64,000 nucleotides of DNA from a virus. Position 1 is the stretch's first letter; each line of letters opens with the position of its first letter. The notes below the pieces were generated by a model, which was not told the origin of the DNA, ran no database searches, and saw only the letters and a program-made list of their open reading frames with translations. Shown piece by piece: positions 1 to 15,218 of this stretch. The stretch covers positions 1-64,000 of IMG/VR virus record IMGVR_UViG_3300042938_001544, one strand, 5' to 3'. A program made the position numbers and the translations under genes.

Positions 1-2
1 AT

Positions 3-119: not shown

Positions 120-461
120 ATGAAGGTCAATAATAGCGAGTTAAGTGGGAAAGTAATCAGAAATAATGAGACGTATATTGTTGAGGACAATACGTTTCTT
201 AATAATTTAGTGTTATCTAAAACAACACTACATCCTGGTAAAGAAACTACAGGACACTCTCACGAAGGTCTTGAAGAAGTTTATTTCTTTATCAAAGGTG
301 AGGGTAAGATGTTGTTAAAAACAGAAACTACTGAAACTAACCTATCGGTTGGTGAAGGTGACATCGTATTGATTCCTGATGGAGCTTTCCACAAGGTTTT
401 CAATCACGAAGGAAAAGAAGATTTAGAATTTGTTTGCGTATTCCAAAAGTACGAAAGATAA
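120..461 (+). CDS. Small cupin-domain protein
   Basis: A 113-residue single-domain cupin. Both conserved cupin motifs are visible: TGHSHEGLEEVYFFIKGEG around residues 41-60, with two His and a Glu as metal ligands, and GDIVLIPDGAFHKVFN around 80-95, with the third His. Such small cupins bind a metal and act as isomerases, dioxygenases or sugar-binding proteins, and the fold alone does not say which. The stop overlaps the next ATG (TAATG), so the two genes are translationally coupled. Family confident; substrate unknown. Confidence 0.88.
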   Translation: MKVNNSELSGKVIRNNETYIVEDNTFLNNLVLSKTTLHPGKETTGHSHEGLEEVYFFIKGEGKMLLKTETTETNLSVGEGDIVLIPDGAFHKVFNHEGKEDLEFVCVFQKYER

Positions 462-979
462 TGAATATTTTCATTTTAGATTGGGATGTTAAAAAGTGTA
501 CTCAGTATCATGTTGACAAACACGTAGTCAAGATGATACTTGAAACCGCACAATTATTGTGTGGTGTTCATCATGTGACTGACGAAGTAACGACCAAGTA
601 CCGACCAAGTACCGACCAAGTACCGTACAAGTTGTCACATAAAAACCATCCTTGCGCAATTTGGGCTCGTAAGAGTTTATCTAATTATTTGTACTTGTGT
701 GAATTGGGATTAGAATTATCTAAAGAGTATACTCATAGGTACGGTAAACAACATAAATCAGAAATGGTTATTTTATGGTGTATTATGAATAAACCTAACA
801 TTCCTGATATTGGATTTACAGAACCTGCCAAGGCGATGCCTGACGAGTTTAAAGTGGATTCTGTTGTAGAATCCTACAGAAATTATTACATGGGGGCTAA
901 ATCTGATTTGGCCGCTTGGAAAAACAGAGAAAAACCTTTTTGGTTTGAAAAAAAAGAATTAAATTTGCAGTATGATTAA
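461..979 (+). CDS. Conserved phage protein with MNIFxLDxD N-terminus, unknown function
   Basis: 172 residues from the ATG at 461, chosen because it overlaps the cupin stop (TAATG) and starts the conserved block MNIFILDWDVKKCTQYHVDK, followed by HVVKMILETAQLL. I know this N-terminal block from uncharacterised proteins in many T4-like phages; the His/Cys/Asp pattern hints at metal binding, but no activity is established. Codons near 591-623 contain an 11-bp unit repeated three times, read in three different frames. An in-frame start at 434 is possible but would lie inside the cupin gene. Confidence 0.8.
   Translation: MNIFILDWDVKKCTQYHVDKHVVKMILETAQLLCGVHHVTDEVTTKYRPSTDQVPYKLSHKNHPCAIWARKSLSNYLYLCELGLELSKEYTHRYGKQHKSEMVILWCIMNKPNIPDIGFTEPAKAMPDEFKVDSVVESYRNYYMGAKSDLAAWKNREKPFWFEKKELNLQYD
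591..623 (+). repeat. 11-bp direct repeat x3 inside a coding region
   Basis: The unit CGACCAAGTAC occurs three times head to tail. Because 11 is not a multiple of 3, each copy is read in a different frame (roughly TKYR, PSTD, QVP), and only the total of 33 bp keeps the frame. This looks like slippage tolerated in a loop of the protein. Confidence 0.85.
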
Positions 980-1634
980 GATAGATAAAGACTTTAAAGG
1001 TGATGTGTGGATTTTTTCGGACCCACACTACAACCACAAGAATATATGTCGTGGTGTAACGGCATGGCGTTTACCTGATGGGACGGTCCCTGTTTCGCAA
1101 ACTCGTGATTTCGAAACTATCGATAAGATGAACGCGACAATAGTGAATAACATCAACGAAAATGTGATGCAAGATGATATTTTAATTTGTCTTGGTGATT
1201 GGAGTTTCGGAGGTTTTGAATCAATCAAAGAATTTTGGGATAGAATTGTTTGTAAAAACATTCACCTTATTTTAGGTAACCATGACCACCACATTGAAAA
1301 TAACCGAGACGGTTGTCAGGGGTATTTCAAAAGTGTCTCTCACTACAACACTTTAAAAATTGATGAACACACATTCCGTTTGATGCACTACCCGATAAGT
1401 TCTTGGGATGGTTTAAACAAGGGTGTTATGCACCTTCACGGACACTGTCACTTACCAACTAGTTTACGTTTAGGTAAAGGACAACGATTAGATGTTGGTA
1501 TGGATGGTCATCCAGAATTTCGACCATACAATATTCGACGTGAAGTTGTCCCTATGTTACGACACAGAGATAAAGTATCTGAGATGGATAATGACCATCA
1601 CACCGATGAAATAATTAACAAAGATAAAGGATAA
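972..1634 (+). CDS. Calcineurin-like metallophosphoesterase
   Basis: 220 residues carrying the ordered metallophosphoesterase motifs: IFSDPHYNH (Asp/His), CLGDWSFGG (GD), LILGNHDHH (GNHD), MHYP and HLHGHCHLP (GHxH). All two-metal ligands appear intact, so it is probably an active phosphodiesterase or phosphatase in the cytoplasm. It overlaps the preceding gene by 8 bp. Its position just upstream of an RNA ligase suggests trimming of 2',3'-cyclic or other phosphate ends during RNA repair, but that is inference; a role in nucleotide signalling is also possible. The overlapping minus-strand frame 1028-1261 is a shadow. Confidence 0.92.
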   Translation: MIKIDKDFKGDVWIFSDPHYNHKNICRGVTAWRLPDGTVPVSQTRDFETIDKMNATIVNNINENVMQDDILICLGDWSFGGFESIKEFWDRIVCKNIHLILGNHDHHIENNRDGCQGYFKSVSHYNTLKIDEHTFRLMHYPISSWDGLNKGVMHLHGHCHLPTSLRLGKGQRLDVGMDGHPEFRPYNIRREVVPMLRHRDKVSEMDNDHHTDEIINKDKG

Positions 1635-1638
1635 GAAC

Positions 1639-1911
1639 ATGAAACACGATAAAGACATTTTAATTTGTAGTTGTCATTCAACTGACCATCAATTAATTGT
1701 TCTATACGAACAAGATGAGGATTTTCCGATGGTATATTTCCACATTCACTTGAATGAAAGACCTTTTTGGAAAAGATTGGTTTATGGTGTAAAATATATT
1801 TTTGGAAGAAAATCTAGATATGGGGCTTTTGATGAATTTATATTTAATCACGACGATGCTCACAAAATTGAAAGAATTTTAGAATATTTGCGAGATGAAA
1901 AAACCGTGTAA
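1639..1911 (+). CDS. Small conserved phage protein, unknown function
   Basis: 90 residues. The core NERPFWKRLVYGVKYIFGRK is a pattern I have seen in uncharacterised phage proteins; it is basic and aromatic, with alternating hydrophobics that suggest a small beta-sheet fold with a basic face. It lies 4 bp after the phosphoesterase and overlaps the next gene by 17 bp, so it belongs to the same operon. No function can be assigned. Confidence 0.8.
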   Translation: MKHDKDILICSCHSTDHQLIVLYEQDEDFPMVYFHIHLNERPFWKRLVYGVKYIFGRKSRYGAFDEFIFNHDDAHKIERILEYLRDEKTV

Positions 1912-2101
1912 GGAATGTCCTTGGGTTGTTAAAAACAAACATAACGAAATGATTACTAATCATTCGATAAAACATAATAAACCCCATAATTGTCATATGA
2001 TATCACCTGAAAAAAGAGGTGGGTTATGGGAGATAAAAGAAGAAACTAAATGTATAGGGAGAAAATTATATGAACACAGAGAGAAAGTTAGCAAGTATTA
2101 G
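1895..2101 (+). CDS. Small Cys/His-rich protein, probably zinc-binding (DUF6283-like)
   Basis: 68 residues starting MKKPCKECPWVVKNKHN with later NCHM and KCIG. The CxxCPW motif and later Cys/His residues resemble the small phage and bacterial DUF6283 type. The residues could form one zinc site. It overlaps both neighbours (17 bp upstream, 32 bp into the RNA ligase). Function unknown; family match moderate. Confidence 0.72.
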   Translation: MKKPCKECPWVVKNKHNEMITNHSIKHNKPHNCHMISPEKRGGLWEIKEETKCIGRKLYEHREKVSKY

Positions 2102-3092
2102 AATTATCAGCGACATCCAACCTATTGAGGGGGCAGATGTAATTGAATTGGCAATTGTTGACAGTTGGAAGGTTGTTGTTGCTAAGAATGTCGGACATAA
2201 AGTAGGTGATATGGTTATCTACTGTGAAATTGATTCATTCTTACCAATCAGAGATGAGTTTGAATTCTTAAGAAAGACTTCGTATAAAAAAATGTCTGAC
2301 GGAGCGGAAGGATTTCGTTTAAAAACAATTAAAATGAGAGGACAAGTTTCTCAAGGATTAATCTTACCAATGTCTGTTGTAGAATATACTAACGTAGGTT
2401 TTGAAGTTGGTATGGATGTAACTAATTTATTAGGAATTAGTAAATACGAACCACCAATCCCTGCTGAATTATCAGGTAAAGTGAAAGGTTTATTCCCATC
2501 TTTCTTACGTAAGACTGATGAGGAAAGAGTTCAAAACTTGACAAAAGAATATGAACAATACAAATCATTAGGTCGTAAATTTTACGTAACAGAAAAATTG
2601 GATGGTTCTTCCGCAACGTTCTACTACAATGATGGGGTATTTGGCGTTTGTTCTAGAAATTTGGAATTACTTGAGACTGAAGGTAACACTTTTTGGAAAG
2701 TTGCTCGTGAATTAGATTTGGAAAATAAAATGAGAGACTTCGGGGTTAATATCTCACTTCAAGGAGAATTAATTGGTGAAGGTATTCAAGGGAATCCTTA
2801 CAAAATAAAAGGTCAAACTGTGAAATTCTTTAATTTGTTTGACATTGATTTACAAGTATACCATTCTTTGGCTCATTTAGATAGAGCTCTTGGTATTATG
2901 GGGATTAAAATGGTTCCAATTGTTGATGAGTTTTTCGTATTACCTGACACTATTGAAGAGTTATTGAAATACGCCGAAGACAAATCTGTGTTGAATTCAA
3001 AATTTGATAGAGAAGGGGTTGTTATTCGTTCTAATGATAGAACAATCAGTTTCAAAGTTATCAGTAATAAATTCTTATTAAACGAGAAGTAA
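2070..3092 (+). CDS. RNA ligase with N-terminal OB-like domain (DRB0094/Rnl2-type)
   Basis: 340 residues. An N-terminal domain (about 1-105) of OB-like beta pattern precedes a nucleotidyltransferase domain. Motif I is EKLDGSS with the adenylated lysine at about K176; later LQGELIGEG (motif IIIa/IV region), DREGVVIRS and ISFKVIS (motif V, K) complete the ligase set. This architecture matches DRB0094-type ATP-dependent RNA ligases, which can join 3'-OH and 5'-phosphate RNA ends. It would act in the cytoplasm on broken host or phage RNAs. The start is inside the preceding gene and the stop overlaps the next ATG. It may form a repair set with the phosphoesterase at 972 and the second ligase at 3338. 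Confidence 0.92.
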   Translation: MNTERKLASIRIISDIQPIEGADVIELAIVDSWKVVVAKNVGHKVGDMVIYCEIDSFLPIRDEFEFLRKTSYKKMSDGAEGFRLKTIKMRGQVSQGLILPMSVVEYTNVGFEVGMDVTNLLGISKYEPPIPAELSGKVKGLFPSFLRKTDEERVQNLTKEYEQYKSLGRKFYVTEKLDGSSATFYYNDGVFGVCSRNLELLETEGNTFWKVARELDLENKMRDFGVNISLQGELIGEGIQGNPYKIKGQTVKFFNLFDIDLQVYHSLAHLDRALGIMGIKMVPIVDEFFVLPDTIEELLKYAEDKSVLNSKFDREGVVIRSNDRTISFKVISNKFLLNEK

Positions 3093-3310
3093 TGGAAGAG
3101 AAGAAAATAAGAAAAACTATAATTCACGAGGAACTTAATGAGAAACAACAGGAAATGTATGATGAATGGTTATTACACATTAAAGCAATTTATGGTGAAT
3201 ATGGTGCATTCACTTGGAAAGTAACCCCAACAGGAATTGGGAGTGGTCTTGTGGTTTATAGTCACAAAACAAAAACAGAATTAGATTTAACCGACGTTGA
3301 TAGTTGGTAA
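3092..3310 (+). CDS. Hypothetical protein, 72 residues
   Basis: Starts on the A of the ligase stop codon (TAATG). Charged N-terminus (MEEKKIRKTIIHEELNEKQQ), then a compact mixed segment. I do not recognise it. The coupling to the RNA ligase suggests cotranscription and possibly an accessory role. The -33 element of the promoter for the next gene overlaps its last codons. Confidence 0.7.
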   Translation: MEEKKIRKTIIHEELNEKQQEMYDEWLLHIKAIYGEYGAFTWKVTPTGIGSGLVVYSHKTKTELDLTDVDSW

Positions 3311-3333
3311 TTAATAAAAAAGTATTACCTTTG
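3304..3333 (+). promoter_or_regulatory. Host-type (Bacteroidetes) promoter for the Rnl1-like ligase, leaderless start
   Basis: TTG at 3304-3306, 19-nt spacer, TACCTTTG at 3326-3333. This matches the Bacteroidetes housekeeping consensus TTTG-N19-TAnnTTTG. The ATG at 3338 is only 4 nt past the -7 element, so the predicted transcript is leaderless or nearly so. Confidence 0.8.
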
Positions 3334-3337
3334 TGGT

Positions 3338-4420
3338 ATGTTAGAAAGATTGAACAAATATTATGATGAGGGTTTGGTACAAAAACAATCGCACCCAACC
3401 CTTCCTTTAACTATATGGAACTACACTCCAAAAGTACAATATGGGGTGACTGGTGACCAATATAAGTTATGGGATGATATCACTGTGCAATGCCGAGGTT
3501 TAGTTACCGATGATAACGGAGTTGTGGTTGCAAGACCATTTAAAAAATTCTTTAACATAGAAGAAAACCGACATACCTCAACTTCAGATTTTGAAGTATA
3601 TGAAAAAATGGACGGTTCTTTAGGAATCCTATTCAACTATAAAGGAGAATGGGTTCTTGCAACTCGTGGTTCTTTCACTTCTGACCAGGCGGTTAAAGGT
3701 ACTGAGTTACTTCAGAAATACGACTATAATAAATTACATTCTGATTACACTTATTTGTTTGAGATAATCTATCCTGAAAACAGAATAGTTTGTTCTTATG
3801 ATTTTGAGGATTTAGTTTTATTAGGGATGATACACACTGAAAGTGGTGTTGAGGTTGATATCCATTTAGGTAATAATAACGATGTTAGGTTTAAAAATTT
3901 ATTAAATAATCTTGAGTTAAACATTGTTAAAAAATACGACGGTATCAAAGATTATACTTTTTTGAAACGTATGATAGCAGATTCTAAAGAGGGTTTTGTT
4001 GTTAGATTTTCAAATGGTAATAGGATGAAAATAAAAGGTGAAGAATACCTTCGTCTTCATAAAATAATGACTAACGTATCTACAACTGCGGTTTGGGAAG
4101 TTTTAAGTTCTGGTGGTGATATGGAGGAAATAATAAAAGATGTTCCTGATGAGTTCTACAAGAAAATAAAAATGTATGTTCAGGAACTGAATTATCAGTT
4201 TTATCGTTATTCAGAATATGCTGGTAAGACTCATGATTATTTCCGATACGGTAAGTATGGTGATAACGAAAAAGAATATAGTAAAAAAGAATTTGCAGAA
4301 CATTTGGTAAAATGTGATGTTCATCCTAAAGTAAAATCTATCTGTTTTGCTATGTGGGACCAAAAACCATATGACCATATCATATGGAATTTACTCAAAC
4401 CAAAGTTTGAAAAACTATAA
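3338..4420 (+). CDS. rnlA: T4 RNA ligase 1-like enzyme
   Basis: 360 residues of the RNA_lig_T4_1 type. The catalytic motif EKMDGSLG gives the adenylated lysine at about K90; upstream CRGLV and RPFKKFFN (around 52-72) are typical of the family. Later KEGFVVRF and RMKIK supply motifs IV and V. T4 Rnl1 (374 aa) repairs tRNA cut in the anticodon loop by host anticodon nucleases, and the same defence-countering role is likely here. The gene has its own host-type promoter 4 nt upstream and a terminator directly after the stop, so it is an independent, probably early unit, unlike its late neighbours. The symbol refers to homology with T4 rnlA (gene 63). Confidence 0.94.
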   Translation: MLERLNKYYDEGLVQKQSHPTLPLTIWNYTPKVQYGVTGDQYKLWDDITVQCRGLVTDDNGVVVARPFKKFFNIEENRHTSTSDFEVYEKMDGSLGILFNYKGEWVLATRGSFTSDQAVKGTELLQKYDYNKLHSDYTYLFEIIYPENRIVCSYDFEDLVLLGMIHTESGVEVDIHLGNNNDVRFKNLLNNLELNIVKKYDGIKDYTFLKRMIADSKEGFVVRFSNGNRMKIKGEEYLRLHKIMTNVSTTAVWEVLSSGGDMEEIIKDVPDEFYKKIKMYVQELNYQFYRYSEYAGKTHDYFRYGKYGDNEKEYSKKEFAEHLVKCDVHPKVKSICFAMWDQKPYDHIIWNLLKPKFEKL

Positions 4421-4448
4421 AACACGACATAAAGTCGTGTTTTTTTTT
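4421..4448 (+). terminator. Rho-independent terminator after the Rnl1-like ligase
   Basis: Perfect 8-bp stem AACACGAC/GTCGTGTT with a 5-nt loop, followed by eight T. It directly follows the stop codon. Confidence 0.92.
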
Positions 4449-4458
4449 GTTATCATTA

Positions 4459-4465
4459 TATTTAT
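4459..4465 (+). promoter_or_regulatory. Putative late promoter element TATTTAT
   Basis: TATTTATTATAA lies 18 nt before the ATG at 4484 and directly after a terminator, where a new transcript must start. One of the set of sense-oriented TATTTAT elements. Confidence 0.65.
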
Positions 4466-4483
4466 TATAAAAAATTATTGCTA

Positions 4484-5089
4484 ATGTCAACAGAAGTTAT
4501 TGTAGCGTTTATAACAGGTGTATTAGGTCCAGTTATTCTTCTATACGCAAAAAACAAATTTGAGAAGAACAAAGAAAAACCTGATATGGTTAAAGAAGCA
4601 CTACAAGTTAGTGAATTGATTACCTCAAAGATTGAACACATCAAAGAAGAATTCAAAGCCGATAGAGTTTGGATTACTCAATTCCATAATGGAGGTCACT
4701 TTTACCCCACGGGTAAATCAATGGCAAAATTCAGTGTTATTTATGAATCTGTCGCACCATCAGTAAATTCAATCCAATTAAATTTTCAAAATATCCCTGT
4801 TAATTTATTTAGTAAGTCTATTAATCAATTATATGAAAATGATGTAATTGAAATTTCTGACTTTAAAGACGATACAATCTCAACATTTGGTTTAAAATAT
4901 ATTGCTGAAGATACAGGATGCAAATCAGGTTTCTTATTTGCAATTAAAACCATTGACGATAAATTCATTGGTACTTTAGGTATTGATTATACTAAAAGAA
5001 AAACAAAACTTGATATGGAATCTATAAATCACCTACAAGTTCATGCAACCGCAATCGGTGGAGTTCTTATGGGTCACCTAAACGGGTAA
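4484..5089 (+). CDS. Membrane-anchored GAF-like domain protein
   Basis: 201 residues from the ATG at 4484; the in-frame TTG at 4478 adds only two residues. Residues 3-23 (EVIVAFITGVLGPVILLYA) form one transmembrane helix, followed by a charged linker (KNKFEKNKEKPDMV) and a soluble domain from about residue 35. The pattern DRVWITQFHNGGHFYPTG and the later GFLFAIKT, IGTLGIDYT strands suggest a GAF/PAS-like sensor fold. It probably sits in the inner membrane with the domain in the cytoplasm. No output domain is present. Late expression is suggested by its TATTTAT element. Function unknown; fold moderate. Confidence 0.82.
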   Translation: MSTEVIVAFITGVLGPVILLYAKNKFEKNKEKPDMVKEALQVSELITSKIEHIKEEFKADRVWITQFHNGGHFYPTGKSMAKFSVIYESVAPSVNSIQLNFQNIPVNLFSKSINQLYENDVIEISDFKDDTISTFGLKYIAEDTGCKSGFLFAIKTIDDKFIGTLGIDYTKRKTKLDMESINHLQVHATAIGGVLMGHLNG

Positions 5090-5107
5090 CAATTCCGAAT
5101 CTCATTA

Positions 5108-5114
5108 TATTTAT
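5108..5114 (+). promoter_or_regulatory. Putative late promoter element TATTTAT, 4 nt from start
   Basis: TATATTTATTAAG immediately precedes the ATG at 5119. If the element is a -10, the mRNA would be leaderless or carry only a few nucleotides. Confidence 0.68.
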
Positions 5115-5118
5115 TAAG

Positions 5119-5787
5119 ATGAGACGATTCCTAAACGAAACTTTACAAACACCAAACCCTTCAGATTATACTAATACTGACTTCAAACCATTTGTTGTTG
5201 GTAGAAGTAATCCGTTATCGGATAAGATAAATCCATCCTTATTGAAGGATGTTGATACCGCAGCCAAAAAAGCCAATGTTAAGGTTAGTATTACAACCGC
5301 AGTTAGTGGCCACGATAAAGGTTCTCGACATGAAAAAGGTTTAGCCGTTGATATTGCGATGGTTAATGGACAAGGTTTTGGTAGTGAAAAAGCCGCAAAA
5401 CAAAAAGGTATTTACGATGATATTATGAGATTTGTCTCTGAATTAGAGAGTCTTGGGTATGTTAAGAATAGTGAATCAGGTAATGATAAAGCGGTTTTAA
5501 CTTTCGGATTCCCAAACCATCATCACCATGTACACGTCTCAAGAAATTCAGATACAGGGGTATCAGATAGTAACGGTAAGGTTTCACCCGAGGTTAAACC
5601 CGATTCTCAAAAAACACCTGACTCTGGTGAAAATTATGATAATATTGATTTTGAAAGCTCATCAGAGAGTAATAATGTTATTCAAAGTTTTTTAAACCCA
5701 TTATTAAACACATTAGGTTTTAAAGAAGGAGAAGAACCTACAAATAAATTGGTTGAGGATATTAAAAGAATTAAAAATTTATTATAA
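5119..5787 (+). CDS. M15/LAS-type peptidoglycan peptidase, virion-associated or lytic
   Basis: 222 residues. The SxHxxGxAxD zinc motif of LAS peptidases is seen as SRHEKGLAVDI (H71, D78), and the final ligand lies in HHHHVHVS (H139 best aligned). This is the signature of D,D-carboxypeptidases and L-Ala-D-Glu endopeptidases that cut peptide stems of peptidoglycan. There is no signal peptide, so it would need a holin or delivery with the virion. The C-terminal tail after residue 150 is low-complexity and contains QSFLNPLLNTLGFKE, closely like the C-terminus of the M23 fusion at 13879-15174. The next gene overlaps its stop by one base, making a lytic/structural pair. Confidence 0.88.
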   Translation: MRRFLNETLQTPNPSDYTNTDFKPFVVGRSNPLSDKINPSLLKDVDTAAKKANVKVSITTAVSGHDKGSRHEKGLAVDIAMVNGQGFGSEKAAKQKGIYDDIMRFVSELESLGYVKNSESGNDKAVLTFGFPNHHHHVHVSRNSDTGVSDSNGKVSPEVKPDSQKTPDSGENYDNIDFESSSESNNVIQSFLNPLLNTLGFKEGEEPTNKLVEDIKRIKNLL

Positions 5788-6410
5788 TGGAAAGATTTAT
5801 TAATCCAGCACCATACGGTAATATGAAATCATCAATAATGTCAAAATCTGTTGATTTAATTTCATACCCAAATTCAAAATTAATAAATCCATATGATGGT
5901 GTTATTGTTTTTGACAGAACTCCTTCTTGTGAAAACTTAATTAAAATTAAACATGAGTTTAATGGTGATAATGTATATTCTGAATTTTGTAATGTTGGTA
6001 AGTCATTTGTTTCACCAGGAGATAGAATAAAACAAGGTCAAATTATTGGACATTTCACTGACGATAGAATTGGGTACTCAATTAAAAACGATGATGATAA
6101 AAAATTAGACGTGTCAAAATATATGGAAGGGTTTAAACCTAAAAAAGAAGACTCTAAAAAAGAGGGACCAAAAAAAGAAGACCCTAAAAAAGAAGACCCT
6201 AAAAAAGAGATTAATAAAATTGATGTCGGTAATAAAGACGTTGGTTCTGGTAATATATTCTTAGATACTTTACTATCCCCATTTTCAATCGCAAATGATA
6301 TTACAAGTGGTGTTGGTAAAGAGATTAAGAAATCCTTTAAAGAAGATTACGGTGGTAATAAAAGACTTACAGAACAAATAGATAAGATTAAAAAAATTAT
6401 AAAGCATTAA
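5787..6410 (+). CDS. Degenerate M23-like (LytM-fold) protein with Lys/Glu/Pro repeats
   Basis: 207 residues. Residues 30-105 show the lipoyl-like beta pattern of M23 domains (INPYDGVIVFD, VSPGDRIKQGQIIGHF, RIGYSIK), but the HxxxD and HxH zinc ligands are absent, so it is probably not a peptidase. Residues about 115-140 are tandem KKEDP/KKEGP units. The C-terminal 60 residues (FLDTLLSPFSIAND through EQIDKIKKIIKH) end in an amphipathic helix resembling that of the preceding protein. It may bind peptidoglycan or a partner rather than cut it. Its start overlaps the stop of the M15 peptidase gene. Confidence 0.75.
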   Translation: MERFINPAPYGNMKSSIMSKSVDLISYPNSKLINPYDGVIVFDRTPSCENLIKIKHEFNGDNVYSEFCNVGKSFVSPGDRIKQGQIIGHFTDDRIGYSIKNDDDKKLDVSKYMEGFKPKKEDSKKEGPKKEDPKKEDPKKEINKIDVGNKDVGSGNIFLDTLLSPFSIANDITSGVGKEIKKSFKEDYGGNKRLTEQIDKIKKIIKH

Positions 6411-6440
6411 AAAACCCCCTTTTCAGGGGGTTTTGTTTTT
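6411..6440. terminator. Bidirectional terminator between convergent genes
   Basis: Stem CCCCCT/AGGGGG with a TTTC loop, flanked by A-run on the left and T-run on the right, so it can stop both the + gene ending at 6410 and the minus gene ending at 6440. Confidence 0.9.
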
Positions 6441-6622
6441 TACTTAACAGATTGAACTGAAGTGGTGTCTACTAAAGTAGAGTCTACACTGATTTTAGTT
6501 GAGTCTGTGGCTACAGATGTACTGTCTGCCGTTGTTAGAGTTTCCTCAGTTTGAGTTGATTGTCCACAAGATACCATCATCATTGTTCCTGTAACCAACA
6601 TAGCGAAAATTACTTTTTTCAT
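6440..6622 (-). CDS. Small Ser/Thr-rich lipoprotein
   Basis: 60 residues with a signal peptide (MKKVIFAMLVTGTMMM) and lipobox VSCGQ, giving a predicted lipidated Cys19 after signal peptidase II. The mature part is about 40 residues, almost entirely Thr, Ser, Asp and Val (TTADSTSVATDSTKIS and similar). It probably sits in the host outer or inner membrane. Phage lipoproteins of this size often act in superinfection exclusion, but nothing here proves it. A TATTTAT element lies upstream (6642-6652, minus), pointing to late expression. Ser/Thr density could make it an O-glycosylation substrate. Confidence 0.82.
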   Translation of the reverse strand: MKKVIFAMLVTGTMMMVSCGQSTQTEETLTTADSTSVATDSTKISVDSTLVDTTSVQSVK

Positions 6623-6641
6623 GTTATATTTGTTTTTATTG

Positions 6642-6652
6642 ATAAATAAATA
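6642..6652 (-). promoter_or_regulatory. Putative late promoter element for the lipoprotein gene
   Basis: On the minus strand the sequence reads TATTTATTTAT, two overlapping copies of TATTTAT, about 19 nt before the lipoprotein ATG at 6622. Confidence 0.6.
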
Positions 6653-6717
6653 GGTGATTGTTGACGTAAAATCAACTTATACTTTAAAATAATTCAGATT
6701 TTCTTAACAAAGTACAA

Positions 6718-6724
6718 TATTTAT
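6718..6724 (+). promoter_or_regulatory. Putative late promoter element upstream of the giant RNA
   Basis: AATATTTATATAA in the sense orientation, upstream of the three host-type promoters. It could add late transcription to the RNA gene. Confidence 0.4.
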
Positions 6725-6755
6725 ATAAAAAATAAAAAAATATACTGTTTAGGTA

Positions 6756-6785
6756 TTGTCAGAACAGTTTTTTTTATTATCTTTG
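6756..6785 (+). promoter_or_regulatory. Host-type promoter P1 of the giant RNA region
   Basis: TTG at 6756-6758, 19-nt spacer, TATCTTTG at 6778-6785. The first of three tandem promoters of the same class pointing into the RNA gene. Confidence 0.75.
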
Positions 6786-6864
6786 TAAAACAATTCGGGG
6801 TTAGGTTGACAATCTGTTATAAAATCGTGGTTTCCTAAGACTGAAAAAAAAAACAAAAAAAAGA

Positions 6865-6896
6865 TTTGGTAAATCGAAAAACTTTACCTACCTTTG
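6865..6896 (+). promoter_or_regulatory. Host-type promoter P2 of the giant RNA region
   Basis: TTTG at 6865-6868, 20-nt spacer, TACCTTTG at 6889-6896. The 36 nt around it are nearly identical to P3 (GATTTGGTAAATC...TTTACCTACCTTTG), so one is a duplicate of the other. Confidence 0.8.
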
Positions 6897-6905
6897 TACA
6901 ACAAA

Positions 6906-6937
6906 AGAGATAGACAACGATTCAGATACAAATCTCT
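6906..6937 (+). promoter_or_regulatory. Hairpin presenting a 16-nt element shared with the small RNA at 29.6 kb
   Basis: AGAGAT (6906-6911) pairs with ATCTCT (6932-6937). The loop carries AACGATTCAGATACAA (6916-6931), which is identical to a segment of the minus-strand small RNA (complement of 29694-29709). The hairpin is near the 5' end of any transcript from P2 and is followed by an A-run, not a T-run, so it is not a + strand terminator. Confidence 0.7.
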
Positions 6938-6955
6938 AAAAAAAATAAAAAAAGA

Positions 6956-6987
6956 TTTGGTAAATCAAAAAAGTTTACCTACCTTTG
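6956..6987 (+). promoter_or_regulatory. Host-type promoter P3, proximal promoter of the giant RNA
   Basis: TTTG at 6956-6959, 20-nt spacer, TACCTTTG at 6980-6987. The predicted start is near 6993-6996, about 20 nt before the boxA-like sequence. Confidence 0.8.
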
Positions 6988-7012
6988 TAAAACAAATCGG
7001 AAACGTCCGAAG

Positions 7013-7027
7013 AAGTTCTTTGACATA
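7013..7027 (+). promoter_or_regulatory. boxA-like antitermination element in the giant RNA leader
   Basis: AAGTTCTTTGACATA resembles the rRNA-leader boxA (E. coli GCTCTTTAACA). The tmRNA leader on the opposite strand contains the near-identical AGTTCTTTAACATA (complement of 8797-8810). In rRNA operons boxA recruits Nus factors to keep RNA polymerase elongating through untranslated structured RNA, and that need fits here. Confidence 0.62.
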
Positions 7028-8291
7028 TTATTATCCATTATAACACTTCGGTGTTGTATAAACGATAATCGGCCGTATATGGTCGTTAAATAAACCTCGA
7101 AAGGGGGATAAAGTGAAATCATAAGTGTTAATGGTTTTGCGGTTCGGGTAACCGAACTCGAGTATACAAGTGGGATATCAGTGAGCCTGTAGTACCGAGG
7201 ATAACTTCGTAGGGAAATGGAAAACTGAACGGGCAATGTGGATTGTCAGTTTGAGGTGGGAACACCAATAAGAATAACCCATAGGAATCAAGTGAGAAGT
7301 GTACTCCAAATACACAATTGCGGGTTCCAATATAAGAGGTGACTTAAAACCGAAGGGATTAACCTGAAGGTAAGATAGAGAACGAATGGTGTCGCTACTA
7401 TCCTTACCACAGACCCACCAAGGTCTTGGTACGAAGTAATCTTAAAATATGAGAGTGGGGACACTCTACCGAGTAGACAAGTATCTTGTTGTTCAAAAGA
7501 TAACGAGGCTTAAGACGGACCTCTACTTGGAATCATCCACAACACAAAACTTATACTAAATTTAAGTAAAACTAAAAGACATATAAGCAAAAGTGTTCGT
7601 CAGGTTTTGATGAAAGTCGCCTACATAGTCATGAGTTGTTCATGGCATACTGAGACCGCAAGTCGATGTATATTGTTACCAAAAACCTCCAAGGAGTCGA
7701 ATCCTGAGTCAGTTCGCAAGATTGAAGAGAGTAGAGTAGTAATAGAGTAGTTAAAACCTTAAGGAGTGATTGGTCTAACCAATCGGCGATGAGAGTTACC
7801 ATTCAAAAGATGGTGGAAATGAAGGGAACCAAATAATCCTTCTAAAGATTCTCACAAAACGGTGTATTCTCAGCCTTTAGCCAACCAAAACTATGAAAAC
7901 AGTGACTCCAATACAGAGAAAAGAGGTAATTACGGTATATTCCTCAAGGTAATGAGTTTAAACTTTCCCTTAAAAAAGTCCCATAGAGTGTGTGTTTTTG
8001 GTTTTATACTATGTTACAACCTTTATCTGCTCTGATTGATAAATACAAAAAACTAGTGTGTTTGTGTCAAGACAAGACATCTTCGCTAAAAGATAAAAAA
8101 CGTCAACACCGATATTCTTAGGTTGTGGATTTTTGTGATAACCACAGGTTTTTTATAGGTGTCTAAATAAGTAAAAAACCAAAAAACATAGACGTTTAGG
8201 TCGCGGATATTCACCTCACGATAGAAGGTCCCATTCGGTGTCACAAACTGATGGAGTGGTTAAGGTTGTACCACTGAGTAAAAAGCCCAAC

Positions 8292-8324
8292 GGGAATAAC
8301 ATGACGATGTTATTCCCTTTTTTT
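8292..8324 (+). terminator. Intrinsic terminator of the giant RNA
   Basis: Perfect 11-bp stem GGGAATAACAT/ATGTTATTCCC with loop GACG, followed by seven T. It marks a defined 3' end for the RNA. Confidence 0.93.
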
Positions 8325-8374
8325 ATGCACTAAAATATAATAATCATACAACACTAATCTATAATTTTAACGCA

Positions 8375-8403
8375 TAAAAAAACCCCATCCGAAGATGAGG
8401 TTT
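8375..8403 (-). terminator. Intrinsic terminator of the tmRNA gene
   Basis: On the minus strand AAACCTCATC-TTCG-GATGGGGTTT (one U-G pair) is followed by a T-run. It starts 7 nt after the tmRNA 3' end. Confidence 0.88.
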
Positions 8404-8409
8404 AATGAG

Positions 8410-8795
8410 TGGAGGTAGAGGGGTTCGAACCCTCGTGTTGTACACCTTACCTATTAAGGACTACACGCTTAGGATAACATTTTCTAATGTTCCAAAAATA
8501 GTTAGTTCGTTCTTCACCATCGTAAACTAACAACCAATGGATGACTCGATTTTGGGTTCAGTCATTTTTCCACCTTTGTATAGACTTCTGTTCCTAGGTT
8601 GTATGTCCACCGACCCGTATGGTGTTTCCTATATGTTAGGCAACAACCGCAGCTTCTTCACGGATTAATCCGATGGTCGCCATTTTGTCTAAAACGTTTC
8701 CGTTTACAGTTTACATCCGTAGATTTAAGTGATAGGATACATCTCACTGCGTGCCCCGAATAACTAACAATGCCAGTCAATTCCAAGTTACCCCC
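8410..8795 (-). ncRNA. ssrA: Phage-encoded transfer-messenger RNA (tmRNA)
   Basis: 386 nt on the minus strand. The 5' end GGGGGTA pairs with 3' TACCTCC (one G-U) to form the 7-bp tRNA-like acceptor, followed by discriminator A; CCA is not encoded. The T arm GAGGGTTCGAACCCCTC is canonical. The 5' part, ACTTGGAATTGACTGGCA, resembles the conserved D-loop side of tmRNAs. The tag frame ends in TAA at 8638-8636 and reads ATIGLIREEAAVVA from GCG at 8680; an upstream resume at AAA (8686), after UUAGAC, would add K-M. The tag ends VVA instead of the usual LAA. tmRNA with SmpB rescues stalled ribosomes and marks the product for Clp proteolysis. No SmpB gene is in the window, so the host protein would be used. 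It lies convergent with the giant RNA. Confidence 0.93.
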
Positions 8796-8796
8796 A

Positions 8797-8810
8797 TATG
8801 TTAAAGAACT
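8797..8810 (-). promoter_or_regulatory. boxA-like element in the tmRNA leader
   Basis: The minus strand reads AGTTCTTTAACATA directly before the mature 5' end at 8795. It matches the element in the giant RNA leader and the rRNA boxA consensus. Confidence 0.6.
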
Positions 8811-8821
8811 TATTTCTTTTA

Positions 8822-8852
8822 CAAAGATAGTAAAGTTTTACCAATTACCAAA
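8822..8852 (-). promoter_or_regulatory. Host-type promoter of the tmRNA gene
   Basis: On the minus strand TTTG (8852-8849), 19-nt spacer, TATCTTTG (8829-8822). The predicted start is near 8816, giving a leader of about 20 nt. Confidence 0.83.
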
Positions 8853-8860
8853 CTATTTTA

Positions 8861-8867
8861 TATTTAT
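8861..8867 (+). promoter_or_regulatory. Putative late promoter element TATTTAT
   Basis: TATATTTATATG about 16 nt before the GTG start at 8884, in the space between divergent tmRNA and protein genes. Confidence 0.6.
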
Positions 8868-8883
8868 ATGTAAATAAATATTT

Positions 8884-10248
8884 GTGGAGGAATCAAAAAA
8901 CGCTAAGATAATATTTGAGAACGAGTATGTCGTATTGGTACAGGTGTTCAATAAGAACGCAGCGACCTATTACGGACCCCCCAAGGTTACTGAATTGTAT
9001 GACCGAGATTTTAGTCATGGTGATTTATATTTTGCCGTGAGTAAATACAATCCTGGCCCTGAGTATATATACACACTATACAAACCTACCGATGGTGAGC
9101 TTGAATATTATTCAGGTATCGAATTAAAACTTGAAAGTTACGACAACATCACATTTAAGTATCCGTACCTAAAACCCTACGTCCAAGATATTATGGGGAA
9201 TAGTGAGATATACGATTTATTATTAAAAATTAAAAACGGTCAAAAGGTTAATAACTGGGATGCTAATAGATTTGACCCAATTGTATATGATATTAAGTTT
9301 AATGAACAAACACCTGGTAAAAGTAGAGTTAAATTAAAGTTTGATGATTATGAGGATTATTGGAAATTATTTGAGTTAACTGAAGGAGATATTTGGTTTG
9401 GAAATTACGTATATTCTAATTATGATTCCTACCAATTTGAAAGTGAAGATTTCGCTGATGAGGATTGGAAACAGGGTTATTTGTTACGGGAATTAAATGA
9501 CGAAAACCAAATTAAACTAAAAGAAATTTTAAAATTATTATCGCCAGAACTATCTCAGTTACGAAATGATGAAGAATGGGAAAAAGCGTCTAATTTACTA
9601 TTATCAACATTTGAACGTGAATGTGAGGGAATTAAATCTGAATGGTTGTCAGAAAAAAATAACTGTAAAGAACGAGGTGCCCGTAAGATGATTGAAGACG
9701 ACTGTTGTAATTTCTTCCAAAATTATGGAATATTCAATATGGGTAATTGTTTTTATAGTTATGTGACAACAGTGTCGGTATTATTATCTTTATATAAAAT
9801 GGTTGATGAAAGACATTTCACGGTTAGTGAGGTTTTAAGTGATATTGGTCATAAATCAGGAAATCTTGGTGGATGGGAAGAATATTCTTATGAACAGGAT
9901 TGTATTGATTTTGATGATGAATCGTTCAATCGTAGTTGTGGTTGGCAATTAGATAAGATGTTTACTAAACTTGAGGATTCTGACGAATTTGAGGATATTA
10001 AAAAATTCTCAGATAATGCTTCGAAAATTTTAAGTAAGTACGACATGGAAACTAATTACAAATTACCCAAAGACGAAACAAAAACATTTAGTATAATTAA
10101 AATGGACCCAAAAACTAATAAAGTCCATGTTGTTGTTTCAGTTAAGAATTCATATCAAGGCGAACAAAGAAGTTATGATTTTGAAGATTTTGACCAATTT
10201 TTACATCATCCCGAATTATTTGAAAATAGATTTGTCAAAGTAAAGTAA
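8884..10248 (+). CDS. Hypothetical acidic protein, 454 residues
   Basis: A long open frame beginning at GTG 8884; no ATG lies near, and TATTTATA 16 nt upstream supports this start. The product is acidic and rich in aromatic residues (YGPPKVTELYDRDFSHGDLYF; DYEDYWKLFELTEGDIWFGNYVYS), suggesting a globular beta-rich N-terminal half. The central part (about 200-270) is helical, and residues 225-350 hold several Cys (DDCCNFF, GNCFY, RSCGW). I do not recognise a family. It stands between the RNA genes and the zinc peptidase, whose promoter overlaps its 3' end. Confidence 0.82.
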   Translation: MEESKNAKIIFENEYVVLVQVFNKNAATYYGPPKVTELYDRDFSHGDLYFAVSKYNPGPEYIYTLYKPTDGELEYYSGIELKLESYDNITFKYPYLKPYVQDIMGNSEIYDLLLKIKNGQKVNNWDANRFDPIVYDIKFNEQTPGKSRVKLKFDDYEDYWKLFELTEGDIWFGNYVYSNYDSYQFESEDFADEDWKQGYLLRELNDENQIKLKEILKLLSPELSQLRNDEEWEKASNLLLSTFERECEGIKSEWLSEKNNCKERGARKMIEDDCCNFFQNYGIFNMGNCFYSYVTTVSVLLSLYKMVDERHFTVSEVLSDIGHKSGNLGGWEEYSYEQDCIDFDDESFNRSCGWQLDKMFTKLEDSDEFEDIKKFSDNASKILSKYDMETNYKLPKDETKTFSIIKMDPKTNKVHVVVSVKNSYQGEQRSYDFEDFDQFLHHPELFENRFVKVK

Positions 10249-10262
10249 TTTACTTATCTTTG
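10231..10262 (+). promoter_or_regulatory. Host-type promoter for the zinc peptidase, leaderless start
   Basis: TTTG at 10231-10234, 20-nt spacer, TATCTTTG at 10255-10262. The ATG at 10267 is 4 nt downstream. The -33 element lies in the end of the preceding gene. Confidence 0.8.
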
Positions 10263-10266
10263 GCCT

Positions 10267-11097
10267 ATGGAAAGAAACTATCAATTACTAAAGGACGTTT
10301 TGTCGGTCCCAACAAAGACATATAAGGAAGACCGAATGATTGAGTTTTTAGTTAATTGGTTAACCGAAAACCAAATACCATTTCAGGTAGACGAACATCG
10401 AAACATTTATGCTACTAAGACATCTCAGGATATTACTGAAGATTTCTATTTCCCGTGTGTTATTGCTCATACTGATACCGTACATCAATTAGACGTAATT
10501 AACGTTAGAGAAATGGAATTACCTAACGCTCAGGGAGTAATTAAACCATCATTAAAAGCATTCAACGATTTTGGTGAACCAACAGGAATTGGTGGTGATG
10601 ATAAATGCGGTGTTTACGCATGTTTAGAATTATTAAAAGAATTACCAAATCTTAAAGCCGCATTCTTTGTTTCAGAAGAAACAGGTTGCCACGGTTCAAA
10701 ACAAGCGGATAAAAATTTCTTCGAGAATGTTGGATACGGAATTCAATTTGATGCTCCTGAAAACTGGATGGTTAGTGAGTTCTGTATGGGAGTTCAATTA
10801 TTTGGTAGAGAAACCGAGTTCTTTAAATCATGTGATGAGGTTTTAACAGAAACATTCAATCCTGATAGAAAATATCAATCTCACCCATACACAGACGTGT
10901 ACGCTTTGAAGAACACATTTGACTTCTCATGTATTAACTTCTCGATTGGGTACTACGACTACCACACTAGAGAAGAATACGTTGTAATCGAAGATGTTTA
11001 TAATGGAATCAAAACGGGTAAAGAATTAATTGAGAAATTGGGTAATGTGAAATACCCATTCAAATCGAAACCACGATACAGTTATTTATTTGACTAA
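10267..11097 (+). CDS. Zinc peptidase of the M20/M28/M42 type
   Basis: 276 residues. Ordered metal and catalytic motifs of co-catalytic zinc exopeptidases are present: IAHTDTVH (first His and Asp), GGDDKCG (bridging Asp), SEETGCHGS (Glu-Glu) and the late YYDYHTREEYV (final His). It is shorter than the usual 350-400 residues; the dimerisation or lid insertion seen in peptidase T-like enzymes looks reduced. It has no signal peptide, so it probably acts on peptides in the cytoplasm, for example recycling peptides released by Clp proteolysis. It has its own host-type promoter and terminator and is thus an independent, probably early gene. Substrate unknown. Confidence 0.88.
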   Translation: MERNYQLLKDVLSVPTKTYKEDRMIEFLVNWLTENQIPFQVDEHRNIYATKTSQDITEDFYFPCVIAHTDTVHQLDVINVREMELPNAQGVIKPSLKAFNDFGEPTGIGGDDKCGVYACLELLKELPNLKAAFFVSEETGCHGSKQADKNFFENVGYGIQFDAPENWMVSEFCMGVQLFGRETEFFKSCDEVLTETFNPDRKYQSHPYTDVYALKNTFDFSCINFSIGYYDYHTREEYVVIEDVYNGIKTGKELIEKLGNVKYPFKSKPRYSYLFD

Positions 11098-11100
11098 TAA

Positions 11101-11131
11101 AAAACCCCTCCGTAAGGTGGGGTTATTTTTT
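11101..11131 (+). terminator. Terminator after the zinc peptidase
   Basis: Stem AACCCC...GGGGTT around a short interior, then ATTTTTTG. Confidence 0.85.
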
Positions 11132-11147
11132 GCTTATTAATGAACAT

Positions 11148-11174
11148 AAAAAAAGGGGGTTATTCAACCCCTTT
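11148..11174 (-). terminator. Terminator of the ClpC-like gene
   Basis: On the minus strand AAGGGGTTGAATAACCCCCTTTTTTT. The stem overlaps the last codons of the gene ending at 11160. Confidence 0.82.
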
Positions 11175-13202
11175 TCTTTTTCTTGTGACTTTCTTTTCCT
11201 CTTTAAACTTAACATCACCATTTTCACTTATTAACGTGTACTCAGTATTCTCTTGAATGTTACTCTTAAGAACCTCTTCAGATATAAAATCTTCAACTTT
11301 ATCCTGAATAGCTCTTTTCAATGGACGAGCACCATACATTTCATCAAACCCAACCTCAGAAATCATATCTAAAATAGAATCGTCAAATTTAATATTATAT
11401 TTAAGACCTGTCAATCTTTCAGATAAAATACTCAACTCAAGCTTAACAATTTTTTTAACATCTTCTTTCACTAGTGAATTAAAAATAATAACCTCATCAA
11501 TACGGTTTAAAAATTCAGGGGCGAAAAACTTCTTAAGTTCCTTCTTCAAAACTTCTCTTTTTTGTTCTTCTTCAACGTAAGAACTCGAGTTAGTTTTAAA
11601 TCCTACACCCGCACCAAACTCCTGTAGTTTTTTAACTCCAACGTTTGATGTCATGATAATGACACAGTTTTTGAAGTTAATTTTTCTTCCCATACCATCT
11701 GTAAGGTGACCGTCATCCAACACTTGTAATAATGTTGAAAATATGTCTTTGTTTGCCTTTTCAATCTCATCAAATAAAATTACTGAGTAAGGTTTGTTTT
11801 TAACTTGTTCAGTTAATTGACCACCTTCGTCATAACCTACATATCCTGGAGGGGCTCCAATTAATCTTGAGATACTATGTTTTTCTTGGTATTCAGACAT
11901 GTCCACACGAATCATATTCTCCTCACTACCAAACATTTGTTTTGCCAATTGTTTTGCTAAGTAAGTTTTACCTACACCTGTTGAACCAAGGAAAATAAAT
12001 GAACCAATTGGTTTATTAGGGTCTTTAATACCTAATCTGTTTCGTCTGATTGACTTAGCAATTTTCATAACCGCTTCAGATTGGCCAATTACTTTGTCAG
12101 ATAAACTACCCTCTAATTGAGATAGTAACATCGTCTCATTAGCATTCAATTTACTAATAGGAATTTTAGTCATGTTTGAAACGACCTCATAAACCAATTC
12201 GATAGAAACTTCTTTTTTCTTAATCTGAAGTTCCTCCTCAAATTTTTTCTTCTCAATATCTAATTTATTGAGAATACGTTTTTCCTTGTCACGTAGATTT
12301 GCCGCCTCTTCGTAATTTTGTTTTTTAACAACCTCAAGTTTTTCAATTTTAACGTCGGCAGCTTCTTGTTTTAATTTTTCAATAATGTCAGGCATTTTAA
12401 TCTCAACTTGACATCTCGCACCTACCTCATCAATAATGTCGAATGCCTTATCAGGAAACTCTCTGTCGGTGATATATCTTGCCGCCAAATCAACACATAC
12501 TGAAAGTATTTCATCAGTATAAGATACCTTGTGGAATGATTCGTATTTATCTTTAACATTCTTAAGAATCTCCAAAGTCTCTTCTTTAGTCGCCGCGTCA
12601 ACAATTACCTTTTGAAAACGTCTTTCTAATGCTCCGTCTTTCTCAAAGTTCTTACGATACTCATCAAGAGTTGTTGCACCAACACATTGAATTTCTCCAC
12701 GGGCAAGTGCTGGTTTGAAGATGTTTGATGCGTCTAACGAACCTGATGAATTACCTGCACCAACTATTGTGTGAATTTCGTCAATAAAGACAATGATATT
12801 TGGTGCGTTTTGTAACTCCTCGATAATTACTTTCATACGTTCCTCAAACTGACCACGGTATTTTGTACCCGCAACAATCGATGTCATGTCTAACGAAACA
12901 ATTCTTTTATCCATTAAATTTCTTGGACATTCACCGTTAAAAATTTTAATTGCTAATCCTTCTACGATTGCGGTTTTACCACAACCAGGTTCACCAATAA
13001 TAATAGGGTTATTTTTCTTTCTACGAGAAAGGATTTGAGCAATCCTTGTAATTTCTCTTTCTCTACCAACAACAGGGTCTAATTTACCTTGTTCGGCCAA
13101 TTTGATTAAATCTCGGCTGAAGTTATCCAACACAGGTGTTGATGAGTCAGATGTTGATTTAGGTGGGTTATTCTTTCCCCCATTATCCATGGATTCTATC
13201 AT
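11160..13202 (-). CDS. ClpC/ClpA-type AAA+ unfoldase lacking the N-domain
   Basis: 680 residues with two AAA+ modules. D1: Walker A GEPGCGKT (70-77) and Walker B VFIDE (138-142). A UVR-like coiled middle segment (YEEAANLRDKEKRI, about 297-310) as in ClpC. D2: Walker A GSTGVGKT (406-413), Walker B VILFDE (474-479), sensor MTSN and arginine-rich FLNRIDE. The usual Clp N-domain (about 150 residues) is replaced by a short Ser/Asn/Pro segment. FGAGVGF contains VGF (533-535) at the position of the ClpC loop that docks on ClpP, so it probably feeds host ClpP. Loss of the N-domain should remove host adaptor control (MecA or ClpS type). It has a host-type promoter about 50 nt upstream, so it is likely early. 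Its link to the nearby tmRNA is inference. Confidence 0.94.
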   Translation of the reverse strand: MIESMDNGGKNNPPKSTSDSSTPVLDNFSRDLIKLAEQGKLDPVVGREREITRIAQILSRRKKNNPIIIGEPGCGKTAIVEGLAIKIFNGECPRNLMDKRIVSLDMTSIVAGTKYRGQFEERMKVIIEELQNAPNIIVFIDEIHTIVGAGNSSGSLDASNIFKPALARGEIQCVGATTLDEYRKNFEKDGALERRFQKVIVDAATKEETLEILKNVKDKYESFHKVSYTDEILSVCVDLAARYITDREFPDKAFDIIDEVGARCQVEIKMPDIIEKLKQEAADVKIEKLEVVKKQNYEEAANLRDKEKRILNKLDIEKKKFEEELQIKKKEVSIELVYEVVSNMTKIPISKLNANETMLLSQLEGSLSDKVIGQSEAVMKIAKSIRRNRLGIKDPNKPIGSFIFLGSTGVGKTYLAKQLAKQMFGSEENMIRVDMSEYQEKHSISRLIGAPPGYVGYDEGGQLTEQVKNKPYSVILFDEIEKANKDIFSTLLQVLDDGHLTDGMGRKINFKNCVIIMTSNVGVKKLQEFGAGVGFKTNSSSYVEEEQKREVLKKELKKFFAPEFLNRIDEVIIFNSLVKEDVKKIVKLELSILSERLTGLKYNIKFDDSILDMISEVGFDEMYGARPLKRAIQDKVEDFISEEVLKSNIQENTEYTLISENGDVKFKEEKKVTRKRKGVE

Positions 13203-13256
13203 ATTTTGTTTTTTAGTTAATTATAAGGATTAATTTTGTATTTTCAACAACAGGTA

Positions 13257-13287
13257 CAAAGGTAAGTAAAATATCTAAATTAAAAAA
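13257..13287 (-). promoter_or_regulatory. Host-type promoter of the ClpC-like gene
   Basis: The minus strand carries TACCTTTG (13264-13257). The -33 side is T-rich rather than a clear TTTG. A leader of about 50 nt follows. Confidence 0.65.
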
Positions 13288-13302
13288 TTTAATTTTTGGT
13301 TA

Positions 13303-13309
13303 TATTTAT
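13303..13309 (+). promoter_or_regulatory. Putative late promoter element TATTTAT, 4 nt from start
   Basis: TATATTTATGAATATG: the element overlaps a possible ATG at 13308, so the ATG at 13314 is the better start and the mRNA would be almost leaderless. Confidence 0.6.
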
Positions 13310-13313
13310 GAAT

Positions 13314-13649
13314 ATGATAAAACACTACACCAAATATATTGAGACCTTAGGTGCTGATAAAGATATCTTAGAAACATATAGAAATCTTAGACAATCATTC
13401 CAAAGAGAAGGTTGGTCCGAAAAGGATTTGGAGAAACCACCATATTATCCCCAAGATATTATGAGAAACTTCCAAAGGTTTAGTAGTTTACATTCAAAAT
13501 TATTCCAAGAACTAAAAAGTTTTTTCCCTGATGTTGACCACAATGAGTTTGTTGATTATCTTAAAGGTAAATTACAAATAATAGATTCAGAAACACCTTT
13601 ACAAAATGGCAGTAAAAAAAGAAGAGATAATCGGGACGAAGATTATTAA
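13314..13649 (+). CDS. Hypothetical protein, 111 residues
   Basis: A small helical protein (MIKHYTKYIETLGADKDILE; FQRFSSLHSKLFQELKSFF) with a basic C-terminus. Starts upstream at 13296 (TTG) and 13308 are in frame, but both fall in or before the TATTTAT element. It overlaps the next gene by 44 bp. I do not recognise it. Confidence 0.72.
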   Translation: MIKHYTKYIETLGADKDILETYRNLRQSFQREGWSEKDLEKPPYYPQDIMRNFQRFSSLHSKLFQELKSFFPDVDHNEFVDYLKGKLQIIDSETPLQNGSKKRRDNRDEDY

Positions 13650-13848
13650 CGAGATAGATTCAAGTAACTTAGTAAAAACTGAGTATGATACCGAAACCAA
13701 ATTAATGGTGGTGGAATTTAAAAACGGTATGAAATACCAATATGACGCGGTTCCTCATGAGGTTTACACTAGATTTAGAATGAATGAGTCTCAAGGTAAA
13801 TTCTTTAACACAGAAATCTCTAAAAAATTCAAATATACTAAACTTTAA
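13606..13848 (+). CDS. KTSC-domain protein
   Basis: 80 residues matching the KTSC domain: short strands TKLMVVEFKNGMKYQYDAVP, then VYTRFRMNESQGKFFNTEISKKFKYTKL. The aromatic-PxxVY and S-x-G-x-FFN pattern is diagnostic. KTSC modules are small RNA/DNA-associated or unknown-function domains frequent in phages and in lysyl-tRNA synthetase fusions. It overlaps the previous gene and ends before the TATTTAT element at 13867. Confidence 0.88.
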   Translation: MAVKKEEIIGTKIINEIDSSNLVKTEYDTETKLMVVEFKNGMKYQYDAVPHEVYTRFRMNESQGKFFNTEISKKFKYTKL

Positions 13849-13866
13849 TTATTATCAATACTCGAC

Positions 13867-13873
13867 TATTTAT
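13867..13873 (+). promoter_or_regulatory. Putative late promoter element TATTTAT, 5 nt from start
   Basis: CTATTTATTAGTAATG: the element sits 5 nt before the ATG at 13879. Confidence 0.68.
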
Positions 13874-13878
13874 TAGTA

Positions 13879-15174: not shown

Positions 15175-15218
15175 ATGATTCAATTACGTTAGAACGATAA
15201 CATTTTTGATTCTGAATA

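Follow-up and report, generated by a model that had tools for sequence, protein, structure and literature searches.

A GOLLD-family RNA with a conserved 3′ tail lies next to a tmRNA gene in a phage genome

Positions 6994–8324 on the plus strand of the window, the 64,000-nucleotide stretch of viral DNA analyzed here (positions 1 to 64,000 of IMG/VR record IMGVR_UViG_3300042938_001544), encode a structured RNA that belongs to the GOLLD family. We read it as one GOLLD RNA of about 1.33 kb, comprising a core (6994–7876), a conserved 3′ domain (7877–8291, hereafter the tail) and a terminator, and we assign a probability of roughly 0.8 to this reading, taken together with the cage and ribosome rescue proposals set out below. 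Among natural RNAs, GOLLD has a striking structure but no established function. Each of GOLLD, phage tmRNA and phage SmpB had been described before; what is new is the tail and this genomic neighborhood. The main new point is the link between GOLLD and trans-translation, which hints at a role for the cage: the kept place beside a tmRNA gene, often smpB, and the gene for a Clp unfoldase is the first concrete and testable functional setting found for this RNA. No report joining GOLLD with tmRNA or SmpB as neighbors was found in the literature library searched; the consulted part of one paper treats GOLLD and tmRNA separately, in mycobacteria (PMC6582537).

The locus is a non-coding stretch of about 1.33 kb that is served by two clear promoters of the Bacteroidota type and ends in a single terminator. 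Both promoters, an upstream one (6865–6896) and a proximal one (6956–6987), lie on the plus strand and match the pattern TTTG-N20-TAnnTTTG, which we take to be the Bacteroidota promoter consensus and which occurs eight times on the plus strand and seven times on the minus strand of the whole window. The initial annotation had counted three tandem promoters; two of these hold, and the third, near 6779, has only the -7 half by eye. Relatives such as L062, L061 and L014 likewise have tandem near-copies of the promoter cassette ahead of GOLLD. Transcription probably starts near 6994, downstream of the proximal promoter, and the predicted transcript (6994–8324) measures 1331 nt, in agreement with the unit of about 1.3 kb (6996–8324) proposed earlier. 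The intrinsic terminator (8292–8324, plus strand) is as clean as had been claimed, with an 11-bp stem (8292–8317) followed by TTTTTTT; one base pair of the stem is A-T in the window and G-C in L014. A terminator scan detected no other terminator-like site on the plus strand between 6435 and 8291.

A protein-coding reading of the locus was rejected, given stops in all six frames of the tail and the presence of only short ORFs of at least 50 aa overlapping 6996–8324 (ORF list for positions 1–16000). The longest of these has 85 aa, is antisense and starts with TTG, which agrees with the earlier statement that the region holds no protein frame of any length. Terminase, portal and major head protein families were found in the virus record of 90,538 bases; together with the covariation described below, this bears out the description of a large structured non-coding RNA in a phage genome. 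Directly upstream of the GOLLD promoters lies a small lipoprotein-like ORF (6440–6622, minus strand), with similar ORFs in 29 loci, all of which have GOLLD. Further upstream, the window carries two different RNA ligase genes (2070–3092 and 3338–4420, plus strand; PF09414 and PF09511).

Membership of the GOLLD family was established with the Rfam covariance model RF02032, which matches positions 7469–7876 (plus strand) over its whole length (model 1–416 of 416) with 326.8 bits (E 7.3e-93), against a gathering cut-off of 150 bits. This segment is the GOLLD 3′ domain, and the match overturns the assertion in the initial annotation that no resemblance to GOLLD could be seen. Like ROOL, the RNA is a large phage RNA, and ROOL is described as forming cages (PMC12286853). 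Unlike ROOL, it gives no match to the Rfam ROOL model at the gathering score in the window, nor in 6700–8900 up to E 5, as the initial annotation had anticipated.

In the GOLLD env-38, the 5′ region comprises residues 1–420 and the 3′ region residues 421–833 (PMC12286853). From this split and the position of the RF02032 match it follows that 6994–7468 (plus strand) should be the 5′ domain. We aligned window positions 6989–7468 with 35 relatives, using 36 of 41 cluster representatives and leaving out five that had no BLAST match to the 5′ half of the window, and obtained a structure with 21 helices. In the RNAalifold structure of these 36 sequences, 90 of the 108 pairs show two-sided changes, and 96.8% of the cells are paired, compared with 76.9% in shuffles and 36–41% when partners were slid; the structure tested was predicted from the same alignment, as was that of the tail, which favors both. 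Covariation among homologues, named in the initial annotation as a check, is present. Folding energy alone is weak evidence for structure: with 60 shuffles each, z is -3.3 in the 5′ domain, -1.0 in the 3′ domain and, terminator excluded, -0.95 in the tail. The structure of the RNA exceeds chance.

The core thus resembles GOLLD env-38 in matching the whole 3′ model and in having a 5′ domain that shows covariation and is of comparable size (475 nt here, 420 in env-38), the two 5′ domains being likened by position and length (PMC12286853). By analogy, 6994–7468 would be the counterpart of the env-38 cage cap. Further features shared with GOLLD are a variable linker, a palindromic GC/CG loop and carriage by a phage; tRNAs lie nearby in relatives. 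The linker of the 3′ domain was placed at approximately 7545–7590 (plus strand) from the Rfam alignment position relative to env-38 nucleotides 497–538, a linker that is disordered in the cage (PMC12286853); 7 of its 46 sites differ between the window and L014. Divergence from L014 is 8.4% in both GOLLD domains. Going by the numbering, we infer that the hairpin at 7691–7705 (plus strand; loop dinucleotide CG at 7698–7699, from the letters and the alignment) corresponds to L21a, a symmetric kissing loop in which GC and CG are reported to replace each other (PMC12286853). Among 92 distinct 3′ domains, 87 have GC or CG at this place and five could not be aligned there. By analogy with env-38, the GOLLD of the window would likely form a cage as well.

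Convergent with GOLLD we identified a tmRNA gene (8407–8795, minus strand), which matches RF00023 over the whole model (1–374 of 374) with 65.9 bits (cut-off 47). By reading, its acceptor stem contains G3-U70, and CCA is not encoded. ARAGORN found no tmRNA in the window, so that annotation pipelines based on it may miss phage tmRNAs of this kind. The gene has a promoter of the same type as those of GOLLD (8822–8852, minus strand, pattern match). The proposed tag frame of this tmRNA, GNVLDKMATIGLIREEAAVVA plus a stop, has 21 codons read from 8701 to 8636 (8636–8701, minus strand). Across 102 loci we found 24 distinct tags of 20–22 residues each, with a pattern that demanded a start of G[NDE][VIT], a final A and 16–29 residues and that limits what could be found. 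The tags of the relatives share a conserved GNVL..K....GL.R and a V-rich end. In 23 of the 24 the last two residues are V-A, A-A or T-A, V being close by, unlike the tag of E. coli, which ends in LAA. The commonest length in the tmRNA database is 10 residues (PMC11915505), against 21 in the window. Over all same-length pairs we counted 1713 synonymous and 3495 nonsynonymous codon differences, and such counts do not by themselves demonstrate that the peptide is under selection. From the length of these tags it seems that phages may mark proteins in a manner of their own. tmRNAs and SmpB have been reported in huge phages (PMC7162821), with GOLLD unmentioned in the text examined of that report; here, the tmRNA adjoins GOLLD and escapes ARAGORN.

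GOLLD records were collected with two DNA patterns. In the first set, 45 of 65 records (our own, two phage records and 62 contigs) were scanned, near-identical copies being left out; 37 matched RF02032, and the eight without a GOLLD match were not carried forward. The second set comprised 50 of 61 new loci, all of which matched, giving 87 counted records in 46 clusters at 95% identity. With a tmRNA threshold set at the cut-off in the first set and at E 1e-12 in the second (where two lie just under the cut-off), 48 of the 87 records have a tmRNA. In 43 of these 48 it is convergent and at most 3 kb downstream, whereas 2.3 would be expected under uniform placement; the exceptions are G017, G042, G060, G061 and G086. 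Counted by cluster, the arrangement is found in 18 of 46. The other 39 records have no tmRNA at the thresholds used, and several of these 39 are short or cut.

Of the 87 records, 20 have the gene smpB, which in 15 lies on the same strand and at most 3 kb downstream. A second count came from an SmpB-based search, in which 46 of the 80 viral loci listed carry GOLLD, each upstream and on the same strand; for 22 of the GOLLDs the distance to the start of smpB is no more than 100 nt. A tmRNA is present in 41 of the 80 loci. As the queries were all GOLLD-linked, this sample is biased, and it includes many near-copies and some loci on known contigs. TAnnTTTG occurs near the smpB start in 46 of 65 cases, and smpB seems to have its own promoter. 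The smpB of the closest smpB-bearing relative (L037/L127; L127 2237–2671, minus strand) seems to start with GTG and lies directly behind GOLLD and its terminator. Phage relatives of 642 and 635 kb (LR756502, LR745206) also carry GOLLD and SmpB. The window's own 90.5-kb record gave no SmpB match, so that the SmpB of the host would have to serve there.

Another kept neighbor is a Clp-type AAA+ unfoldase (11160–13202, minus strand; phrog_4871, PF07724, PF10431), with homologues in 64 loci, 62 of which have GOLLD. No Clp N-terminal domain is among the 25 Pfam families listed for it; its GVGF motif could be the ClpP-binding loop.

The company of GOLLD may have another cause. GOLLD and the trans-translation genes could be neighbors merely because one Bacteroidota phage clade inherited them as a block, GOLLD itself being unrelated to rescue, and we give this account even odds. 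Other genes are kept in the same way, ORF 8884 in 88 loci and ORF 10267 in 84, next to the 64 with Clp. Outside the clade, in Streptococcus, the association is not seen: a host genome search with a specific GOLLD pattern yielded 7 contigs, each titled Streptococcus and none Bacteroidota, and neither tmRNA nor SmpB is near the prophage GOLLD in any of seven Streptococcus genome loci (8 kb each). Association also falls off with SmpB divergence, GOLLD being present with 42 of 46 SmpBs at 72% identity or more but with just 4 of 34 at 62% or less among the matches listed. An Rfam scan of divergent SmpB loci, covering 16 of the 34 without a GOLLD match, found no GOLLD and two tmRNAs, and L201 and L203 have tmRNA and SmpB without GOLLD. 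On the other hand, the partners stay together although what lies between GOLLD and tmRNA is very variable and may be a tRNA, the tail, small ORFs, smpB or still other genes, and L169 keeps GOLLD, tmRNA and smpB within about 2.5 kb despite a rearranged order. In L003, L071 and L083, moreover, the Clp gene lies 2–3.5 kb downstream in the other orientation with no tmRNA detected there. The link between GOLLD and trans-translation is clade-bound and part of a wider synteny, which makes a functional reading of it tentative.

A canonical GOLLD would end near 7876, and the RNA of the window runs on for 415 nt to the terminator. In this it is unlike the 833-nt env-38 (PMC12286853): with 1331 nt it is longer, as the initial annotation had held in comparison with known phage giant RNAs, and it bears one more conserved 3′ domain, about 415 nt in length. 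The tail (7877–8291, plus strand) matches no Rfam family at or above the gathering score, with sub-threshold matches only, and the same is true of its homologue in L170. It recurs full length behind GOLLD in two further phage lineages and weakly in another, and is a candidate new RNA domain. Closest to the window, L014, L032 and L046 share it at 93%; the L062 group, whose 3′ domain is 95.8% identical to that of the window, lacks it. Full-length homologues came up in a sensitive search in L170, L172, L173 and L174 (E 4.5e-7 to 7e-6), which have GOLLD, tRNA, tail, terminator, smpB and tmRNA in this order. A pattern search for the tail in viral contigs gave 11 stretches and then 17, the latter including L213 and L216, a new tail lineage (motif scan) with the order GOLLD, tRNA, tail, tmRNA. 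L075 and L092 are probably a fourth lineage: the scores are weak (for L075, a profile match of 13.6 bits, E 0.011, and E 0.066 against a covariance model limited to the 3′ portion of the tail), but the place is right and the motifs GTGACYC and GATAACCAC or GATACCACA occur at similar spacing. The profile was built from the tail lineages themselves, and the L075 match is the sole independent one. The best conserved hairpin of the tail, GUGG...UGUGAUAACCAC (8125–8145, plus strand; alignment and covariation), has its motif in L075 too. Two other candidates were discarded, a match of L055 to the tail covariance model (E 0.74), likely due to chance, and a GTGACTCC match in L103, which sits in tRNA-like sequence.

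Whether core and tail act as one molecule is less certain. GOLLD could end near 7876 and the tail be cut from the common transcript as a separate small RNA, which is less likely than not. A tRNA separates core and tail in L170, L172, L173, L174, L213 and L216, and its processing should part the two; the tail also has its own terminator at its end. A 3′ tRNA appears to be a recurrent attachment of GOLLD, because among L218, L223 and other Streptococcus loci there are two in which the Rfam model places the start of a tRNA-like sequence 4–9 nt beyond the 3′ end of GOLLD, and a tRNA-like motif lies within 145 nt downstream of GOLLD in 20 of 97 distinct downstream sequences. The window differs from such GOLLDs, as the tRNA model found no tRNA in its own 90.5-kb record and a convergent tmRNA is present instead. 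Against a separate small RNA, no tRNA, terminator or promoter pattern lies between 7876 and the tail in the window lineage, and pattern and local searches found the tail nowhere except behind GOLLD.

That the tail is a functionless, decaying insert, for instance a dead smpB or tRNA, is very improbable. It does sit where relatives have smpB or other genes, and its folding energy is unremarkable. Divergence from L014 speaks both ways: at 6.3%, the tail is less diverged than the adjoining spacer (8325–8400, 17.1%) but more so than the non-coding stretch 6651–6770 (3.3%), so that low divergence alone proves little; the tmRNA differs by 1.3%, and dS in neighboring ORFs is 0.11–0.70. Constraint on the tail is for this reason plausible and not proven. 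A dead smpB was rejected on sequence, the best tblastn piece being 11 residues long (E 0.008). The insert account is at odds with the full-length homologues in other lineages and with two-sided changes in 14 of the 49 predicted tail pairs (six sequences, three lineages; a small set, in which MAFFT alignments are uncertain at such divergence), compared with 6.3 in shuffles, none of 500 of which reached 14, and 0–2 with partners slid.

A new ornate RNA class unrelated to GOLLD, as first proposed, has next to no probability left in spite of the unusual length and the tail without a family, being already refuted for the core by the whole-model match and by the RF02032 matches of the related records; what is left of the novelty is the tail and the genomic company of the RNA.

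For the single GOLLD RNA that we favor, a course of events can be proposed. Copies of the RNA would join through their kissing loops into a hollow 14-mer cage, as in the cryo-EM structure of env-38. Where a tail lineage has a tRNA(CAT)-like sequence between GOLLD and tail, processing of that tRNA would release the tail; since the window lacks this tRNA, its tail probably stays joined, and a cage would carry up to 14 tails. The cage would then hold tRNAs, tmRNA-SmpB or ribosomes, or raise their local concentration, in the course of lytic takeover. That it serves phage-run translation and ribosome rescue is a tentative proposal, to which we give slightly less than even odds. It is suggested by the genomic company, namely a phage tmRNA that has its own long tag, phage SmpB in relatives, a Clp unfoldase nearby and the likeness of the GOLLD and tmRNA promoters. 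Ribosomes are reported to bind GOLLD in pull-downs, as stated in PMC12286853 with reference to another source. A more specific version, rather unlikely as it stands, is that GOLLD cages would be the RNA scaffold of a phage ribosome rescue and tagging system made up of GOLLD, SmpB, the tmRNA with the 21-residue tag and the Clp unfoldase, with the tail as a docking domain by which tRNA, tmRNA-SmpB or ribosomes would be presented at the cage or within it.

Far from this locus, a very long proline- and valine-rich repetitive frame (60441–63368) was observed on the minus strand, lying over plus-strand frames; it is probably a collagen-like repeat region read antisense.
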